From assembly GCA_023145965.1 (NCBI GenBank), contig JAGLDC010000019.1, forward strand, positions 1 to 52,101: 52,101 nt of DNA, in the 5' to 3' direction. Source of the stretch: a bacterium (lineage in GTDB: Bacteria; UBP14; UBA6098). Below, piece by piece: positions 10,781 to 47,200 of the stretch (positions are counted from its first letter, which is position 1; each line of letters opens with the position of its first letter). The position numbers and the translations under genes are program-made. The notes beneath the pieces are model-generated. The model had not been told where the DNA came from and searched no databases. It saw only the letters and a program-made list of their open reading frames with translations.

Positions 10781-10859
10781 GAGGGATAGATTGAGGGTAG
10801 AGGCGTAATAAGGAATTAGGTTGTGGCCTGAAGACGTTACTTTTTTACTTTCGTTTTGT

Positions 10860-10930
10860 CGCTGTCACGATTTTTGCTTTTCCGATAATTTAACTTTATT
10901 AGTATTTTGATATCGAGCAAAAATCTCGCT
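10860..10930. repeat. Dispersed inverted-repeat element, copy 1
   Basis: CGCTGTCACGATTTTTGCT at 10860-10878 is the exact reverse complement of 19201-19219. Within each copy GATTTTTGC is followed after 37-38 AT-rich bases by its inverse GCAAAAATC. In both copies that arm is followed by a CCCAC-containing stretch. No coding potential was seen. Confidence 0.65.
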
Positions 10931-10946
10931 CCCCACCTTGTTGTCA

Positions 10947-10973
10947 CGAAATTTGCAGAGGGGGCAAATTTCG
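10947..10973. repeat. Short perfect inverted repeat related to the dispersed element
   Basis: CGAAATTTGC (10947-10956) and GCAAATTTCG (10964-10973) pair over 10 bp around 7 bases. The left arm is preceded by GTCA, giving GTCACGAAATTTGC. This resembles GTCACGATTTTTGC of the neighbouring element 80 bases upstream. Confidence 0.6.
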
Positions 10974-11037
10974 CGCTATCGCCTTACCTGCGCCATCGGC
11001 GGAGATTTTGTATAAGACTGAAAATTAGATAGAAAAA

Positions 11038-11070
11038 AACCGGTGGTTTTGAAACCACCGGTTTTTTATT
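11038..11070 (-). terminator. Bidirectional rho-independent terminator
   Basis: AACCGGTGGTTT and AAACCACCGGTT form a 12-bp perfect stem with a 2-base centre (11038-11063), flanked by an A-run on the left and a T-run on the right. It lies just past the stop of the SppA-like gene on the minus strand and could also stop plus-strand transcripts. Confidence 0.85.
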
Positions 11071-11086
11071 TAATTTTAATATATAT

Positions 11087-12826
11087 TTAGTTTTCGCCTT
11101 CGATCACTCTAACAGGCATAAGCGTAAGCGGCTCCGGATATCTATATAAGGATACAAGGTCGATATATGGTTGGAAGGCGTTTTCGATTTCTTTTGGGAG
11201 TTCCAGTTTTCCGACGGCTGAGCCGGAATAAATCTCGAATGCCATTTTGAAAAAACTTTTTTCTTTAGGATACACGACGATTCCCAACTCTTCTTCCGGG
11301 ATAGAAACCATATTTGCGGCGATATCAATAACTTCGGATAAGGAGGCTATTCTATCAGCGAGGTGGTTTGCTACAGCCTGGTTGCCTGTCCAGATTCGTC
11401 CTTCGGCGAGTTTAAGTAGAGAATCGAGTTCGAGGCCTCTGCCTGCTGCAGCCTTAGAGGTGAAATCGCTGTAGATCGCGAGTGTTGACCTTCGAAAAGC
11501 GTCGTAGGCTTCGGGGTCCATCGGTTTGTGCAGGGAGAAATCGTCAGCTAGCGAGCCTCGTGTGATTGTATCTACGGTAATGCCGACCTTTGTCATAAGT
11601 TCTTCAATATTAAATTTCATGAAAATGACACCGATAGAACCGGTTATTGTTCCTTCAGAACAGAAAATTGAATCTGCGGGCATACTAATGTAGTATCCAC
11701 CGCTTGCGGCAACACCTCCCATACTGACCAATACGGGTTTTTTCTCCTTTGCATCGATAATGGATTTCCATAAGAAATCACTAGCGAGGGCGCTTCCTCC
11801 GGGCGAATTTACTCGAAGCACAATAGCTTCGATATTGTCGTCATCAGCAGCGTCATCGATAGCTTCCATAAAGGTTTCATCGCCGATAGAGAAATTGCTT
11901 TTAAAGGGATTGTCTTTTGATTCGCCGGAATGGATATTGCCGAGGCAATATATGACAGCGATTTTTTGTTTGCCGGACAGAAAGCTTTTTGAGGATTTAT
12001 ATCTGGATACTGACACTATTCTCTCGTCGTTATCCTCGACTAATGAAAGCATTTTATCTTTGTATTCCTGTGGGTAGAGGATTCCATCGATAAGTCCTAT
12101 TTCGAATCCTTCTTCGGCTTCGAAGGTTCCTTTATCGACGATAGCTCTGAGTTGTTCTTGGGTAATATCTCTGCGTTGGGCGACTTTTACGATCCAATTT
12201 TGGTAAAGGTCATCGAGCAGAGATGTATAGTTTTCGCGAAGTGGTGGTGTAAAGCCTTTTTGAGTGAACATCTCTGCTGCGCCTTTATAGTCACCAATCT
12301 GGATTACATCGAAACCGACGCCGACTTTTTCTGCTGTTCCGGCATAGAACATCGGCATTATAGCCATTCCAAGTAAAATGAAATCGCTCGGAGGGGGCAT
12401 GAATACGCTATCAGCAAGTGAAGAAGCAAGAAGGCCCTTCATTCCTGCAGATGGCATAAAGGCATAGACGGGTTTTCCACTGTCTTTAAACTCCTCGACC
12501 GCTTTTGAAAATTCATCGAGTTGAGACCTGGAGAGTGATACACCATTGATCTTGAGTGATAAAGCAATAATGTCCTCATCCTCGGCGGCAGTTTCTATGG
12601 TTTTTATCAGACTAAGAAAATTTGAGTCTTTCTTGAAGCTGAAACCTGAGAAGTTGTATGTGCTTCTTTCTGGATAGGGTTTAGAAAGGTTGACGCTTAA
12701 TATTGAAGCCTTGTCAATCGATGCAGCGCTTTTTCCAGATATCCCAGAAAGGGTTTTAACCGCAAACAAAACTACCAAGAATAAAACAATCAAAACAACA
12801 GAAATAATTATAAGAGCTTTTTTCAC
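11087..12826 (-). CDS. sppA: Signal peptide peptidase SppA, 67K type (S49 protease)
   Basis: A membrane-bound serine protease that degrades cleaved signal peptides. 579 residues with two tandem S49 domains. A transmembrane helix lies at the N-terminus (KKALIIISVVLIVLFLVVLFA). The general-base lysine is in the N-terminal domain (GDYKGAAEMF). The nucleophilic serine is in the C-terminal domain in GGVAASGGYYIS, followed by EGTITGSIGV. The GTG at 12826 is preferred over an ATG at 12883 because TTGGAGG immediately precedes it and the membrane helix then starts at once. It is a single gene with its own terminator. The abundance of exported proteins nearby fits a need for signal-peptide turnover. 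Confidence 0.92.
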   Translation of the reverse strand: MKKALIIISVVLIVLFLVVLFAVKTLSGISGKSAASIDKASILSVNLSKPYPERSTYNFSGFSFKKDSNFLSLIKTIETAAEDEDIIALSLKINGVSLSRSQLDEFSKAVEEFKDSGKPVYAFMPSAGMKGLLASSLADSVFMPPPSDFILLGMAIMPMFYAGTAEKVGVGFDVIQIGDYKGAAEMFTQKGFTPPLRENYTSLLDDLYQNWIVKVAQRRDITQEQLRAIVDKGTFEAEEGFEIGLIDGILYPQEYKDKMLSLVEDNDERIVSVSRYKSSKSFLSGKQKIAVIYCLGNIHSGESKDNPFKSNFSIGDETFMEAIDDAADDDNIEAIVLRVNSPGGSALASDFLWKSIIDAKEKKPVLVSMGGVAASGGYYISMPADSIFCSEGTITGSIGVIFMKFNIEELMTKVGITVDTITRGSLADDFSLHKPMDPEAYDAFRRSTLAIYSDFTSKAAAGRGLELDSLLKLAEGRIWTGNQAVANHLADRIASLSEVIDIAANMVSIPEEELGIVVYPKEKSFFKMAFEIYSGSAVGKLELPKEIENAFQPYIDLVSLYRYPEPLTLMPVRVIEGEN

Positions 12827-12919
12827 TTTTCCTCCAACGGTTTGTTTAAAATACAATCTATATAAAAACCAGTCGGGTTTCAAGTTATAAGAGATGGCTT
12901 GGAGCTAGAACTATTTTCG

Positions 12920-13093
12920 GGGGGCGTCGGCCGTTGTGCCGATAGGCACAACGGAACAAGCAGGTCGCAAGGAATTTTGCTTCGATTTGACTATTTTAAA
13001 GCGACCTGCTTGTAAGCTTCTGCTCGAAAGGTCGAGGATATATTTTTGGGAGGAAAACTGTGCTCCTTTCGAGCAGGAGCTTACGACGTCCCC
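12920..13093. repeat. Four-stem cloverleaf palindromic element, copy 1
   Basis: All stems are read directly. Closing stem: GGGGGCGTCG (12920-12929) with CGACGTCCCC (13084-13093), 10 bp including one G-T. Hairpin 1: CCGTTGTGCC with GGCACAACGG (12931-12954), 10 bp, GATA loop. Hairpin 2: CAAGCAGGTCGC (12957-12968) with GCGACCTGCTTG (13001-13012), 12 bp perfect, 32-base loop. Hairpin 3: 13013-13031 with 13065-13083, 19 bp with one T-G, 33-base loop. Only three bases at the junction are unpaired. It lies between sppA and tRNA-Lys. A second element of identical layout is at 46112-46271. No ORF fits; it could be a structured RNA or a DNA element. Confidence 0.8.
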
Positions 13094-13134: not shown

Positions 13135-13164
13135 TTGACATAAACCTTTGCTATAGATATTTTA
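13135..13164 (+). promoter_or_regulatory. Promoter of tRNA-Lys
   Basis: TTGACA (13135-13140), an 18-base spacer and TATTTT (13159-13164). Transcription would start about 6 bases before the mature tRNA 5' end. Confidence 0.55.
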
Positions 13165-13176
13165 ATCAGACTCTTC

Positions 13177-13249
13177 GAGGGTGTAGCTCAGTAGGTAGAG
13201 CACCGGCCTTTTAAGCCGGTTGTCGTGGGTTCGAAACCCCCCACCCTCA
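13177..13249 (+). tRNA. tRNA-Lys (anticodon TTT)
   Basis: Acceptor stem GAGGGTG/CACCCTC (7 bp, perfect), D-arm GCTC/GAGC, anticodon stem CCGGC/GCCGG around loop CTTTTAA with anticodon TTT at 13210-13212, five-base variable region, and T-loop TTCGAAA. The discriminator base is A and CCA is not encoded. The T-stem GTGGG/CCCCC has one T-C mismatch at its second pair. Confidence 0.95.
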
Positions 13250-41484: not shown

Positions 41485-44400
41485 ATGCGTAAGCACGCTA
41501 CAGCAATTATTTTAATGTTGCTCCTTGTTGGTGGTTTGTTAGCCCAGGGAGTCGCGATTACCCAACCCATCGACGGTCTCACCACGGCCGATGAAGACCA
41601 GCTTGTTTCTTATGTCTTCAGTGCGCCGGAGGATATCGACCAAGCTACGGTCGTATTGAGTGTCGATGGAACCGATTACACTATTGGTGCGGGCCTCGAA
41701 TGGACGATAGTCAACTTGATTTATGACATTGTCCCGGGAGTCTGGACTGAAGGTGTTCACACGCTTAGCCTTTCTGCTCTTGACTTGGTTGGTGACCCAG
41801 TTATTGGGACACCTTTAGAAACTGAGTTTAATGTCGATTTGTCCGCTCCTTATATGAGCGCGCGCACACCTGGCGTTATCGATGAGACAGAACCTATTCT
41901 TACAACCGATGTTTTGGAACCTATTTCAGTCACCATCACCGACGATTTTGGCGTTATAGATCCCGCCTCGATAGTCGTCGAGATTAAGGATATTCCTTAT
42001 ACTATGGCTTCTGTGGGTGTTACGCTCACTGCAGTCGATGGTGGTTATCTCTTTGAATTCGATCCCGCCACGGCTGGAATCGCTTGGGAAGAGAACGATT
42101 GGGTGACAGTCGAACTCATGGCAGCTCAGGATGCTCCTCATTATGGTGCTTCTAATGTTGCTGTTCCGGGGCCTGAATTCGGGTTCTTTGTCGATGCTGA
42201 TGGTCCTGAGTGCTTCCCAGTCGAGCCGATTCCTTTTGTCCGCGATATTATCTGGACGGGATGTTCTGACCTTCAGCTCACATGGCGCATTATCGATGAA
42301 AACGGTCTTGATCTTTCCTCATTCTACATCATGGTTAATGATGTAAGGTATAACTGGGGTAACTATCGTATGGTTGTGGATACTCTCGATTCATACGAAG
42401 TTTACACGGTTATCGATTCGGTTACGACTGATACAACCGAGATCGTTAATGAGGTTGTTTTCACATTCTCGCCGAACCCACAATGGTATGAAGGGGTTGT
42501 TTTTACAGTCTTTTCGCCGGTTATAAATGATATTTATGGCAATCCGGCTACCGATTGGGATTGGGGTGCATATTCGTGGACATCGTGGAAGCTTCGTTTC
42601 GATAACACCGGCCCGGCTATCTCGAACCCTGTTCCTGTTCCGAGCTATGTTACCAGAGACTTAGAAGAGTCGATCAGCTGGGATATGACCGATACATGGG
42701 GCGCTGTCGATCCTTCGACGGTTCACTTCATTATCGAGACATCTGGCGGCGAATATATTGAATACGATGCATGGAACGCCGTTACAACCAGAGAGATCAC
42801 TTATGATGGTTTAACGATGACCTATTATCCCAATATGGGCGGTATCGCCTGGTTACAGGGTGACACAATCACCGTAACCATCTGGGATGTTATGGATTCA
42901 ACGGAATTCTGTGATGCTAATCATCTTTCGCATCCTTCTTTCAGCTGGACTTTCTATGTTGCTGATGGTCCAATGGCTGACAATTTAATCCCGGGAGTTG
43001 CCGAGTTTACAAGTTGTCAAGCTCCTCAGATAAGTTTCGAACTTATTGATCCCGATGGAATTAACCCGACCTCGGTTCTTTTCCAGGTTGAGGATGTTAT
43101 CTTTGATGTTAATTACGACATAACCGTTATCGAAACTGTTGCGATTATTGGTGGTCATGTGATTACCGAAACGACTGAAGTATTCCCGTTCTATCAGGAT
43201 ATTTCGCTTCCTTCTCGCTTCCTTCTCGATATGGCGCTTGTTCCGCCGAGTTTGATTAATTTCACCGATGCCATGGAGGTTAACTGCACGATTCTCGAAG
43301 CTATGGATTGGCTTGCCAATCCGCTTTGGGGAGGTCCTCACAGCTGGCGTTTCTGGGTGGATTACTCTGGTCCGTTCGCGGGCTCGACAATGCCCGCCGA
43401 TGGTGGTATCGCTGGTGGCCCGTATCCGGTTTTCTCTATCGATGTTTTGGATGCGGTTTGCGGGATGGTAGATCCTAACGGCGTGAGCGTTCAGCTTCGC
43501 GGTGTTAACTTTAATCCGCTTATCGATCCCGGTGTTTTCTGGGAAGATATTTTTGGTGGTGGAAGAATCACAATCGATACTGAGATCGAAGGTTTCTACT
43601 ACGATCATGGTTCTGTTGTTAATGTTTGTCTCAACGAGGCATACGATAATCCAAATCACCGTTGTGGGATTTGGGGCAACATTGCTCTCGATCTTCCCTA
43701 CTGCTGGAGCTTCACTGTCGATAATCATGTTCCGGCTGTTGAAGTCGTCGAGCCTCTCAATATGACAGTATCGGCTTGTCCAATGCAGCCAATCGTTATC
43801 GAAATCACCGATGATTATGGCGTCGATCCTACAATGTTTAGAATGACAGTTAACCATGTAGTTATCGACTGGGGCGACCCAAGACTCACTTGGGATGGAA
43901 CTTACCTTTCATTTACACCGACTGAGGATTATCCTGAGGGTTTGGTTACCTGGGCTCTTAACAGGCTTTCCGATGTTGCTGGTAATATAGACGATGAAAC
44001 GCCGCTTTCCGGTGGATTCTATGCGGACTACACCGCTCCTGCCATTACTTTGACCGATCCGCTCGATGGCAGCACAGCTATCGTTGTGCCTGAGTTCCTA
44101 AAGATCGGAACCGATGATATGGCTGGACTCGATCCGCTGTTCACGCAGTTTGTTATAGATGTTTACACCGATGAAACTACCTTCGTCACATATATAGTAG
44201 ATGAAGCGACCTTCCCCGGCGTGTTCATCTGGGATGCCGACTTAAATGAGCTTTGGCTCGATATGGCGGTTGCCGGTATTACATTTGATTTCGAGGTATA
44301 TCGTGTTATGGTTAGCATTGCTACTGCAGATGCTCCTGAATATGCTTGCCCCGATCCGAATATTCTTGGCCTCTATCAATATGAGTTCTTCGTGAATCCA

Positions 44401-45954
44401 GGTTGGATGGTCGATCTTGAATATTGGTGTGACGAATCGACTATGGTGGATGTTTATGGATTCGGTGCTTTCTTTGGTGGAACCGAAGAATACGACGCTG
44501 GTCTCGATGAGCTACTTCCGCCGTTCCCACCGACCGAGACGCCGCTTTCGTTCTTAACTCCAGGCGCTGGAACTCCGCTCAGGCAAGACTATCTTGGCCT
44601 GGACTCCGACACCTGGGAGTGGACTATGTATACTGGTTCTCAGAGTGGTTGTATTCACTGGGATCCCACTGCACTTCCAGCTCTCGGCAGCTTTGTTATC
44701 AACGGAACTGTTGACATGCTCGGAACCGGTGAATATTGCTTTGAACCTGGCGAGGTTATTCTAATAAATGTGACTCGTCGTGTGATGATGGTAGCTGGAG
44801 GCTGGAATTTGATTTCAGTTCCGGTTGCGCCAGTTGACCCGAGTATCGAGGCTGTTTTCCCGATGGTAAACCCTGCTGATATTTGGGAATACACAGGCGG
44901 AACACCGCCTTATGTTCATCCGGCTATAGTTCATCCGGGACGTGCTTATATGGTTCTTTATACACCTGGCCCTGAAGACCCGGATCCCTGTTATTTCACG
45001 GTTCCCGGGATTCCTATTACCGAATATACTGTCGATCTGATAAAGGGTTGGAACACTATTGGTAGTGTTTATGACTTCGGTGGAGTTTCATTCCTCGATC
45101 CTGATGACACACCTGATGGTAGCTGTGAGCCGATCGTTTACTATCTCGATCCGGCAGCAGGTTCTTATGCCTTCTCCGATGTTATTGTTGCTGGGATGGG
45201 CTATTGGAATCTCGTCGATCCTCCGGCTCCTTTCTTAACCTGTGAGCTTACTGTTTCCGCGAGCTATGCCCGTGGCGCGAAAGCTCTACCTGGTTTCGAA
45301 GGCGAACCTGAGTGGACAACCACGATGAATTTCGCTGGTGATGCGGTTCGTGAAATAACCATCGGTGGGCATGCCGAGGCTACCGCCGAATACGAACGCG
45401 GTCTCGATATACCGATACCGCCGGCCCTTCCGGGTGCCACATTCGATGTCTATATTGAGGGAACCAAATATGGTCGCCTAATTAAGGACATTCGCAATAG
45501 CGACGGTTGGACGATCGTTGTGAATTCTCAGACACCGGTCGAGTTTACCTGGACAGGAAATGCTCCAGAGGGACTCATTCTAGAGGGAATGGGCCAAGAA
45601 ATCGACCTTAACGTCGATGGAAGAGCGATTCTCGATCCAGGCACTTACACAGCGAAACGTCGTGTTGAAGTTCCGAGCGATTATGCACTTAAGGGCGCAG
45701 CTCCGAACCCATTCAATGCTGCTTGTGGCATAACATTCGACATTCCGAGTGATTCAAAAGTGACACTCGAAGTGTTCGATATGATGGGACGCAAGATAAG
45801 CACCGTTGCCGATGGCGATTTCGCTCCGGGCACACACCGTGTTATCTGGAACGGAAACGACGATTATGATCGTGAAGTTTCCAGTGGAGTCTATTTCTAT
45901 AGAATGAATGCTGGAGATTTTAAAGCATCTGGCAGAATGGTTCTTATTCGCTAA
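41485..45954 (+). CDS. Giant secreted Ig-like-repeat protein with sorting domain
   Basis: 1489 residues with signal peptide 1-20 (LLLVGGLLAQ). Residues about 21-980 are successive Ig-like modules of 110-150 residues, recognisable by repeated 'D..GP' starts, 'I.D..GVDP.S..' centres and 'W.F.VD' ends. A beta-rich stretch follows. Then come a GWNLISVPV module near 1105 and a related KGWNTIGSVYDFG near 1190, as in the 1808-residue protein. The sorting domain (about 1400-1489) has APNPFNAACGITFD and ends SGRMVLIR. Cysteines are scattered but not patterned. It probably forms a surface fibre or adhesin. It has its own promoter and terminator. A short tandem 11-base repeat at 43204-43228 lies within it. 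Confidence 0.85.
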   Translation: MRKHATAIILMLLLVGGLLAQGVAITQPIDGLTTADEDQLVSYVFSAPEDIDQATVVLSVDGTDYTIGAGLEWTIVNLIYDIVPGVWTEGVHTLSLSALDLVGDPVIGTPLETEFNVDLSAPYMSARTPGVIDETEPILTTDVLEPISVTITDDFGVIDPASIVVEIKDIPYTMASVGVTLTAVDGGYLFEFDPATAGIAWEENDWVTVELMAAQDAPHYGASNVAVPGPEFGFFVDADGPECFPVEPIPFVRDIIWTGCSDLQLTWRIIDENGLDLSSFYIMVNDVRYNWGNYRMVVDTLDSYEVYTVIDSVTTDTTEIVNEVVFTFSPNPQWYEGVVFTVFSPVINDIYGNPATDWDWGAYSWTSWKLRFDNTGPAISNPVPVPSYVTRDLEESISWDMTDTWGAVDPSTVHFIIETSGGEYIEYDAWNAVTTREITYDGLTMTYYPNMGGIAWLQGDTITVTIWDVMDSTEFCDANHLSHPSFSWTFYVADGPMADNLIPGVAEFTSCQAPQISFELIDPDGINPTSVLFQVEDVIFDVNYDITVIETVAIIGGHVITETTEVFPFYQDISLPSRFLLDMALVPPSLINFTDAMEVNCTILEAMDWLANPLWGGPHSWRFWVDYSGPFAGSTMPADGGIAGGPYPVFSIDVLDAVCGMVDPNGVSVQLRGVNFNPLIDPGVFWEDIFGGGRITIDTEIEGFYYDHGSVVNVCLNEAYDNPNHRCGIWGNIALDLPYCWSFTVDNHVPAVEVVEPLNMTVSACPMQPIVIEITDDYGVDPTMFRMTVNHVVIDWGDPRLTWDGTYLSFTPTEDYPEGLVTWALNRLSDVAGNIDDETPLSGGFYADYTAPAITLTDPLDGSTAIVVPEFLKIGTDDMAGLDPLFTQFVIDVYTDETTFVTYIVDEATFPGVFIWDADLNELWLDMAVAGITFDFEVYRVMVSIATADAPEYACPDPNILGLYQYEFFVNPGWMVDLEYWCDESTMVDVYGFGAFFGGTEEYDAGLDELLPPFPPTETPLSFLTPGAGTPLRQDYLGLDSDTWEWTMYTGSQSGCIHWDPTALPALGSFVINGTVDMLGTGEYCFEPGEVILINVTRRVMMVAGGWNLISVPVAPVDPSIEAVFPMVNPADIWEYTGGTPPYVHPAIVHPGRAYMVLYTPGPEDPDPCYFTVPGIPITEYTVDLIKGWNTIGSVYDFGGVSFLDPDDTPDGSCEPIVYYLDPAAGSYAFSDVIVAGMGYWNLVDPPAPFLTCELTVSASYARGAKALPGFEGEPEWTTTMNFAGDAVREITIGGHAEATAEYERGLDIPIPPALPGATFDVYIEGTKYGRLIKDIRNSDGWTIVVNSQTPVEFTWTGNAPEGLILEGMGQEIDLNVDGRAILDPGTYTAKRRVEVPSDYALKGAAPNPFNAACGITFDIPSDSKVTLEVFDMMGRKISTVADGDFAPGTHRVIWNGNDDYDREVSSGVYFYRMNAGDFKASGRMVLIR
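43204..43228 (+). repeat. Tandem 11-base repeat inside CDS
   Basis: TCGCTTCCTTC occurs twice back to back, followed by a partial third copy TCG. The unit is not a multiple of three, so a slip would break the frame of the 1489-residue gene. Confidence 0.6.
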
Positions 45955-46111: not shown

Positions 46112-46271
46112 GGGGGGTGTCGAGCGTTGCACATAAATGGGCAACGAAGCGGCAGGCCGGAGGAAAATAATGGTTTGTAAGCCAATTTATTCCGGCCTCC
46201 GGCCTGACGCTAATTCTATGGGTCTTTGGAAAACGAGCTTTCCAAAGACCCATAGAATATCGACGCCTCCC
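46112..46271. repeat. Four-stem cloverleaf palindromic element, copy 2
   Basis: Closing stem: GGGGGGTGTCGA (46112-46123) with TCGACGCCTCCC (46260-46271), 12 bp with two wobbles. Hairpin 1: CGTTGC/GCAACG (46125-46146), 6 bp, 10-base loop. Hairpin 2: 46148-46163 with 46196-46211, 16 bp with one mismatch and a 32-base loop. Hairpin 3: 46213-46232 with 46239-46258, 20 bp perfect, loop ACGAGC. The order, the single unpaired G before hairpin 1, the 32-base second loop and the ends (GGGGG.GTCG / CGACG) repeat those of 12920-13093. The stem sequences are unrelated. No ORF fits. Confidence 0.8.
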
Positions 46272-46295
46272 CGGATGTATCTAGATAATCTAATT

Positions 46296-46351: not shown

Positions 46352-47200
46352 TTAGAAATGATCGTAATCCTCGACTTCTTGATAAGCCGCTTGGAAATAA
46401 ATACCTCTGTCTGGATAGGCTCCACCGACAAAATTCACAAAATAAAACTTTGTGTAGTGGCTACCAATTTTAATTGCAAATGTAGTTCCAGGTTGTGTAA
46501 GGGTCTGAGATCTTGCCGTGCCAATAGTTCCAGAAGATCCGAAAGACGAAAGACCGGCGGTGGCTATACCAAGGCGTTTGACAGAAGCCTCCCTAGTAGC
46601 CCATTCAGTCCCGAAAAGGGAGGGAGATTTAAGCGTAAGATAATTAGAATCGTCAACACCGAGGTAGAGATCGATAAATGTTAAATAGGCAAGGTTCATA
46701 GGATAAACGACCTGAGCATCGAAATCGACGGAGGAGAAAGCGCTATCGCCTCCGGTGGATTCCCAAAGTGTGTCAGAAAACCAAATGGTTGGTGAAGTAT
46801 CTACAGTATTTGAATTAGAAGATAGCGTCGTATCATCGCCTTCGATCTTGATAGAACGGGCAGTAAAATAGTGTTTGCTTACACTACTCAAACCGGAAAT
46901 AACGATTTCTGTGTTGTTGACGATAATACCCATATAGTGCGTTTCCATCTCTTCAGATGTAAGACCTGAAAAATCGGCATTAACACGATGGTAAATTTTG
47001 TATCCTGTGAATCCGGTTTCACCTTCATCGGGCGAAGGATTCCAGGTGAGCTTAACTGAATCTTGATAGGTAACATAAACCATACCAGTAGGCGGATCGA
47101 AAACCTCTGGTTCAGGCTCCGGGTCGGTGGATTTTTCACATCCAAATACAACAAGCATAATTATCGCACAAAACGATAATAGAAATAAAGTTTTTCTCAT
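46352..47200 (-). CDS. Fibronectin type III-like lipoprotein
   Basis: 282 residues. Signal peptide with a good lipobox (MLVVFGC, Cys about residue 21), followed by a charged linker (EKSTDPEPEPEVFDPP). Residues about 38-130 form a fibronectin type III-like domain (DSVKLTWNPSPDEGETGFTGYKIYHR, SVSKHYFTARSI). The remaining 150 residues are beta-rich with no recognised family. It is probably anchored in a membrane facing the periplasm or surface. AGGAGG precedes the ATG and a promoter is visible upstream. The neighbouring gene at 47313 has a related FN3-like start, suggesting an old duplication or a shared surface role. Function unknown. Confidence 0.8.
   Translation of the reverse strand: MRKTLFLLSFCAIIMLVVFGCEKSTDPEPEPEVFDPPTGMVYVTYQDSVKLTWNPSPDEGETGFTGYKIYHRVNADFSGLTSEEMETHYMGIIVNNTEIVISGLSSVSKHYFTARSIKIEGDDTTLSSNSNTVDTSPTIWFSDTLWESTGGDSAFSSVDFDAQVVYPMNLAYLTFIDLYLGVDDSNYLTLKSPSLFGTEWATREASVKRLGIATAGLSSFGSSGTIGTARSQTLTQPGTTFAIKIGSHYTKFYFVNFVGGAYPDRGIYFQAAYQEVEDYDHF

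Follow-up and report, generated by a model that had tools for sequence, protein, structure and literature searches.

The question raised by this locus is what kind of genetic object the cloverleaf at 12920-13093 represents. An earlier note on the same DNA had left three options open: a structured RNA, a non-autonomous mobile DNA element, and a recombination or cruciform site. The analysis covered the whole stretch of 52,101 nt (the window), its own genome (G000), two genomes of the same genus (G001 and G002), and two genomes of sister genera within the same GTDB family (G003 and G004). The cloverleaf proved to be a member of a dispersed repeat family specific to this lineage. Judged from sequence comparison, this family is probably a non-autonomous, REPIN/MITE-like mobile DNA of about 120-240 bp, in which a GGGGGCGTCGG-type terminal repeat closes three near-perfect arms.

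Refolding bore out the overall fold described in the earlier note, with a closing stem of 10 pairs (one of them G.T), three hairpins, and only three unpaired junction bases. Of the arm lengths stated there (10, 12, and 19 bp), one needed correction, as the second arm has 13 bp rather than 12; the third has about 18-20 bp (Table 1). The pairing is beyond chance, as had been supposed: with RNA parameters, the fold reached -97.5 kcal/mol compared to -50.5 ± 3.98 for shuffled sequences (z -11.8), the minus strand gave a z of -10.25, and DNA parameters gave -56 (z -12.14). In each case, 0 of 200 shuffles were as good.

Table 1. Positions of the features discussed; single coordinates refer to the window, those with an L prefix to loci in related genomes.
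Feature	Position	Strand or frame	Basis
5' half of closing stem / terminal inverted repeat (GGGGGCGTCG)	12920..12929		Fold and family consensus
Arm 1, short outer arm, 10-bp hairpin, 4-nt loop	12931..12954		Fold
Arm 2, middle arm, 58 nt, 13-bp perfect stem, 32-nt loop	12956..13013		Fold
Arm 3, long outer arm, 69 nt, ~18-20 bp stem, large loop	13014..13082		Fold
3' half of closing stem / terminal inverted repeat (CGACGTCCCC)	13084..13093		Fold and model match
sppA-like gene, S49 peptidase, divergent	11087-12883 as listed ORF	Opposite to tRNA-Lys	Start by eye: GTG near 12826 behind GGAGG
tRNA-Lys(TTT)	13177..13249	+	Rfam match and tRNA call
Promoter-like site of tRNA-Lys, between element and tRNA gene	13135..13163	+	Consensus match only
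Second family member, closing stem and three arms	46112..46273		Fold z -12.8; model R1 99.2 bits (copy in training set)
Arms of second copy	46125-46146, 46148-46211, 46213-46258		Fold
In-frame copies of G003	L203, L207, L215, L219-L222, L224-L230	In frame	Sorting-domain code
Cloverleaf inside putative pdxA	L040:1503-1720 (G003); L039:1503-1738 (G004)		Fold and protein alignment

The element is flanked by a divergent sppA-like gene and by tRNA-Lys, the promoter-like site of which lies downstream of the element. The region upstream of sppA in G001 and G002 is without the element, and the upstream gene differs. A search of the whole window against Rfam matched tRNA-Lys only. A permissive search with the element returned sub-threshold hairpin matches, the best of which reached 25.7 bits, the cut-off being 92. 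Neither search thus matched the element at the curated threshold, in agreement with the earlier note, which had recognized no known family. Elsewhere in the window, two tandem hairpins ahead of a terminator (10866-10973) are possibly a decayed copy; the DNA fold of 10840-11080 has a z of -6.4.

BLAST with the element found no full-length relative. Fragmentary matches pointed to its first bases, which recur in its own genome and in the two genomes of the same genus. The 13-mer CGGGGGGCGTCGG, allowing up to one mismatch, was found at 16 (G000), 58 (G001), 33 (G002), 6 (G003), and 4 (G004) places, mostly as inverted pairs 110-230 bp apart; the reversed 13-mer, used as control, gave 0, 0, 2, 1, and 2 places, respectively. 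A two-ended pattern was counted 7/7 (forward/reverse), 54/54, 35/38, 18/18, and 0/0 times in the same order of genomes. Among 12 other genomes of the class, 11 were without any occurrence and G014 had one place, while the control occurred at one place each in G012 and G005. A closing stem with exactly three arms was present in 117 of 138 terminal-repeat pairs (G000 9, G001 47, G002 42, G003 18, G004 1).

A covariance model, R1, was built from 20 copies, with the copy at 12920-13093 left out and the one at 46112-46273 included. The untrained copy was detected with 59.1 bits (E 1.8e-10 in the window). The earlier note had spoken of both copies, and a second cloverleaf was indeed located in the window. 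Searching 17 genomes of the class and counting both strands, R1 matched 38 times in G000, 45 in G001, 74 in G002, and 9 in G003, with zero matches in the remaining 13 genomes, including all 12 outside the GTDB family. Altogether, 156 distinct copies were collected from the five family genomes (G000 24, G001 56, G002 57, G003 18, G004 1); such counts depend on the patterns and the model used, and those for G000 are lower bounds. Among the 40 copies added after the model search, both window copies included, 36 had three arms, the middle one measuring 54-64 nt.

In public records, a strict pattern retrieved 73 stretches, 44 of them from genomes of this family and 29 from unrelated genomes. The latter were rejected as family members, as only 2/29 had three arms and a middle arm of 54-64 nt. 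The same script found this arrangement in 16 of 17 stretches sampled from the 44, the remaining one measuring 66 nt. No match to the family was found in phage sequences or in viral contigs. A generic cloverleaf detector missed even the window copies; it is therefore too strict, and its silence elsewhere is uninformative.

The family follows one plan, in which the terminal inverted repeat (consensus GGGGGCGTCGG...CCGACGCCCCC) encloses exactly three hairpin arms, ordered as short outer, middle, and longer outer arm in either orientation. The middle arm measured 52-68 nt in 115 of 116 copies from G000, G001, G002, and G003 (76 nt in the single exception), and the outer arms ranged from 13 to 106 nt. 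Across 34 copies of G001, the middle stems were 91% identical and the middle loops 50%. Similarly, the tips of the other two arms are variable and their stems constant. A role of the loop as a guide matching its own flanks gave no signal in any of the four genomes tested. Reduced forms also occur: a 93-bp copy in G002 (L367:1583-1675) has a middle arm of 12 nt, and two closing-stem hairpins of G000 (L023:551-589 and L087:1063-1091) stand alone without three arms. The latter were considered as empty sites and discarded, as their neighbor genes yielded no filled ortholog.

The earlier note had named a lack of further copies with covarying stems as the outcome that would count against it; many copies exist and their covariation is strong. 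In 42 aligned copies of G001, 98.5% of cells were paired, compared to 92.6 in shuffled and 37-49 in slid controls. Two-sided changes numbered 110, compared to 26.8 and 1-19, respectively, and by our own count the alignment holds only four one-sided standard-pair cells. For G000 and G002 together, 28 of 41 predicted pairs showed a two-sided change. The family is thus multicopy, with a common fold of closing stem plus three arms and covarying Watson-Crick stems.

Strong folding and covariation are also what a structured or regulatory RNA, or a terminator or attenuator family expressed from many loci, would exhibit. The short distance of the copies to the nearest ORF (median about 40-48 bp, with ORFs taken as simple stop-to-stop frames) and the Rfam hairpin matches, sub-threshold as they are, would suit such a family. 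An RNA fold is expected to favor G-U over A-C on its working strand. Among 4002 fixed-register stem cells from four genomes, 3871 were Watson-Crick, 27 G.T, 23 A.C, and 81 other, and the G-U tolerance expected of a structured RNA was not found. As G.T is not in excess over A.C, and the stems are nearly pure Watson-Crick with two-sided changes, the fold appears to be kept as DNA rather than RNA. Furthermore, the orientation of the copies relative to their neighbors is random, no Rfam family matches, convergent gaps are not clearly enriched (on a small background), and the promoter-like site of the tRNA gene lies beyond the element. We therefore regard an RNA as very unlikely. Among the options of the earlier note, non-autonomous mobile DNA is favored by the dispersed family, an empty outgroup site, and pairing at the DNA level, and the idea of a cruciform is compatible with the data.

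Nearly all stem changes being two-sided (110, against four one-sided cells in G001) could also be a mutational by-product, in which template-switch correction of palindromes builds and keeps hairpins without any mobility. Template switching is described as able to yield two-sided stem changes (PMC8794818), so local correction may help to maintain the stems. Such a process would account for paired stems. It would leave unexplained the shared terminal sequence, the restriction to one family, the stem sequences conserved across copies, and the net insertion. As sole cause it is extremely improbable; palindrome correction is likelier a helper process.

Evidence for net insertion comes from the second copy, which sits next to a terminator between the convergent genes A (41485-45954) and B (46352-47200), a pair that is syntenic in all five family genomes. 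The stop-to-stop distance minus the element is 235 in G000 (397-162), 222 in G002 (373-151), and 218 in G001 (348-130), and the gap without element in G003 is 230. The filled gaps less the element match the empty one, which indicates a net insertion relative to G003. The G004 gap is longer (327) although it lacks the element. Looking for empty sites in sister genomes, as the earlier note had proposed, thus gave one clean case, filled in G000, G001, and G002 and empty in G003. G002 has a copy at the 3' end of hslU, and the sequence available downstream of this gene in G000, G001, and G003 has none. Here, as beside a hemolysin-like gene, synteny is broken on the other side, which rules out a comparison of gap lengths.

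Direct repeats at the borders were scored as a sign of target-site duplication. Their scores were weakly above partner shuffles in G000 (8/300 as high) and G001 (19/300), and not above them in G002 and G003. Isolated clear cases such as L206 (TTATTCCAT) occur, and no general signal emerged across the copies of four genomes.

The positions of the copies were compared through their neighbor proteins, which yielded 39 cross-genome pairs with a common homologous neighbor. Within the genus of the window, the copy lay at the same gene end in 35/37 pairs and, with the gene no more than 500 bp away, in 33/33, from a sampling centered on copies and uncorrected for preferred gaps. The two pairs involving G003 or G004 were discordant in gene end. 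Relative to the shared gene, the cloverleaf had the same orientation in 15 and the opposite one in 17 of 32 of these 33 pairs, one pair being excluded because its member L351 has no three-arm structure. Same-site copies scored much like random cross-species copies (loops 16.78 vs. 16.59; whole element 61.4 vs. 62.4), whereas their 150-nt flanks were more alike (89.1 vs. 55.5, 0/40 as high). These comparisons suggest that sites persist. Either new copies take over from old ones on the spot, regardless of orientation, or the element inserts repeatedly into the same gaps. Such sites, conserved and with randomly oriented occupants that differ between species, would allow the replacement of dispersed repeats to be tested directly by comparing sister genomes. 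In addition, L354 (G000) and L234 (G002) have a single copy between two genes. In G001 (L162, L194) the two genes lie in different places, and each is accompanied at the corresponding end by a separate copy, as though the element had been the breakpoint of a rearrangement.

Persistence at the same gene end in all 33 close pairs could likewise reflect a host-functional DNA site, a cloverleaf bound by a nucleoid, topology, segregation, or recombination factor, or serving as a cruciform site, and kept by selection at chosen gene ends. Its stems would then track recognition by a host protein that differs between species, which would suit stems conserved in sequence within a species, free loops, and a middle arm of nearly constant length. 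Many sites are not shared, however, as the hslU copy illustrates; the orientation is random, no gene-orientation class is clearly enriched (again on a small background), and G003 carries copies within coding sequence. We consider a host site unlikely.

The copies within genes are difficult to accommodate. In G003, 14 of 18 three-arm copies lie in frame in the region of a C-terminal sorting domain, which has 157 matches in that genome at E up to 1. The closing stem codes for RGVG and PTP(L), the middle loop for a native KIFDINGRLV-type motif, and the long-arm loop for a hypervariable peptide. Domains with a copy are longer than those without by about 5-7 and 12-17 residues (13 vs. 6 domains). 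A motif profile scored 28.7 on the G003 copies and -0.9 on the other strand. One further, decayed sorting-domain example is L211. The notion that intergenic middle loops in the genus of the window are fossil sorting-domain code was rejected, as the profile scored below shuffled sequences on G001 loops (z -4.4) and no better than shuffled on those of G000 and G002 (z -0.9 and -1.3).

A cloverleaf was also found in G003 and G004 inside a gene that we take to be pdxA from its GDP.G.GPE motif, with the codons of which the end repeat coincides. The two PdxA proteins align with the G001 homolog without a 200-bp insertion. Between the two genera, the short arm shows covariation (GCGCCC/GGGCGC vs. GCTTCC/GGAAGC). 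The middle and long arms are outside the usual sizes, and synonymous-codon shuffles gave z values of only -4.5 and -2.0. We could not reconcile plain insertion with this gene, which may instead reflect evolution in place, the writing of stems onto existing sequence, or an unrelated palindrome whose ends match by a coincidence of codons. Overall, plain insertion explains the in-frame sorting-domain and pdxA copies poorly, and they raise the question of how a folding constraint is imposed on working protein code.

One answer would be a templated conversion in which resident DNA receives the paired stems and ends of the element and retains its own sequence in the loops, even in working genes. If true, the mobile entity would be a fold rather than a sequence. 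The pdxA cloverleaf without net insertion and with a covarying arm, the native motif in the sorting-domain middle loop, and the hypervariable loops all point in this direction. However, the sole clean empty site documents a full-length net insertion, the sorting-domain copies do lengthen the protein, the pdxA folds are weak against codon shuffles and unusual in arm size, and loop sequences show no greater similarity between orthologous sites than between others. We consider such conversion quite unlikely.

For the mobile element that we favor, the transposition substrate would be a folded single strand or an extruded cruciform, and stems would then be kept while loops drift. New copies might also displace those already present at a site, with the terminal repeats as anchors and without regard to orientation; the sites would then be conserved and their occupants specific to each species. 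Keeping the stems perfect may be aided by local template-switch or palindrome correction, and a mobilizing enzyme would presumably act in trans. A Y1 transposase-like protein of 136-155 residues is encoded in 5/5 family genomes (L286-L291; two matches in all in G002, one further partial match in G003), and visual inspection suggests intact HUH and tyrosine motifs. G000 has a single Y1 protein, which reached 46.9 bits against the NCBIfam IS200 cut-off of 55 and 16.7 bits against the RAYT cut-off of 80, and is thus not assigned to the RAYTs. Y1 matches were obtained in 15/17 genomes of the class, with or without the family, and the fetched flanks of the Y1 genes from five genomes contained no family copy and hardly any hairpin. 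This solitary HUH protein is the leading, if weakly supported, candidate mobilizer. A listing of long inverted pairs 300-2500 bp apart in the sampled loci revealed no obvious autonomous parent with the same ends.

Several observations count against mobility: the lack of a target-site duplication signal beyond weak or isolated cases, of an autonomous copy in the sampled loci, and of copies beside the Y1 genes, the Y1 genes of relatives in which the family is missing, the single clean empty site, at which the G004 gap is longer without an element, the pdxA copies without net insertion, and the native protein code in sorting-domain loops. Furthermore, same-site occupancy in three species could result from independent insertion into preferred gaps instead of replacement.

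No description of the family was found in the literature within reach, which mostly lacked subscription papers, so that its absence is not proven. Bacterial palindromic repeats are usually single or paired hairpins, and REPIN and REP-RAYT systems have a conserved GTAG (or GT[AG]G) at the hairpin foot. Where those systems have one or two hairpins, the present family has three arms enclosed by a closing stem. On inspection, alignments A1 and A3 show no invariant GTAG at the hairpin foot, and a GTAG lies inside the G001 middle stem. Unlike in RAYT systems, the Y1 protein of G000 is far below the RAYT model, and the Y1 genes are not flanked by copies. REP, BIME, and REPIN are described as short, high-copy, non-autonomous intergenic palindromes with predicted single-stranded-DNA folds, REPINs being inverted REP doublets (PMC3116915). 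Our family resembles them, together with RAYT (TnpA-REP), in its dispersed non-autonomous palindromes and the solitary HUH transposase in the genome.

Di Nocera et al. (2013) described CGTC-tagged REPs, in which a hairpin of 8-9 bp with a loop of 4-5 nt carries an unpaired CGTC tag on one side (PMC3733652). The present family is similar in that its terminal repeat contains CGTC, its units occur in opposite orientations and sometimes within coding genes, and no dedicated transposase is known. Here, in contrast, the CGTC forms part of the paired closing stem of a cloverleaf of 120-240 bp. Named MITE examples are ERIC, NEMIS, and YPAL (PMC3733652). The family shares with MITEs terminal inverted repeats on a multicopy, non-coding element within 70-300 bp, dispersed intergenic copies, and net insertion at one site. 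It differs in having no general target-site duplication signal, no parent insertion sequence found in the sampled loci, and an interior of three conserved hairpins with hypervariable loops. The Rickettsia palindromic elements (RPE) are described as palindromes in frame inside genes (PMC10969869), as are the G003 copies, which differ in always occupying the same position within a single protein domain, whose native motif forms the middle loop. Further literature for comparison includes PMC8266576 and PMC6006769. We file the family as a distinct variant among non-autonomous palindromic mobile DNAs, outside the REPs, CGTC-REPs, and the named MITE families; what is conserved in it is a four-way junction that leaves hardly any junction base unpaired, with Watson-Crick compensation at the DNA level.
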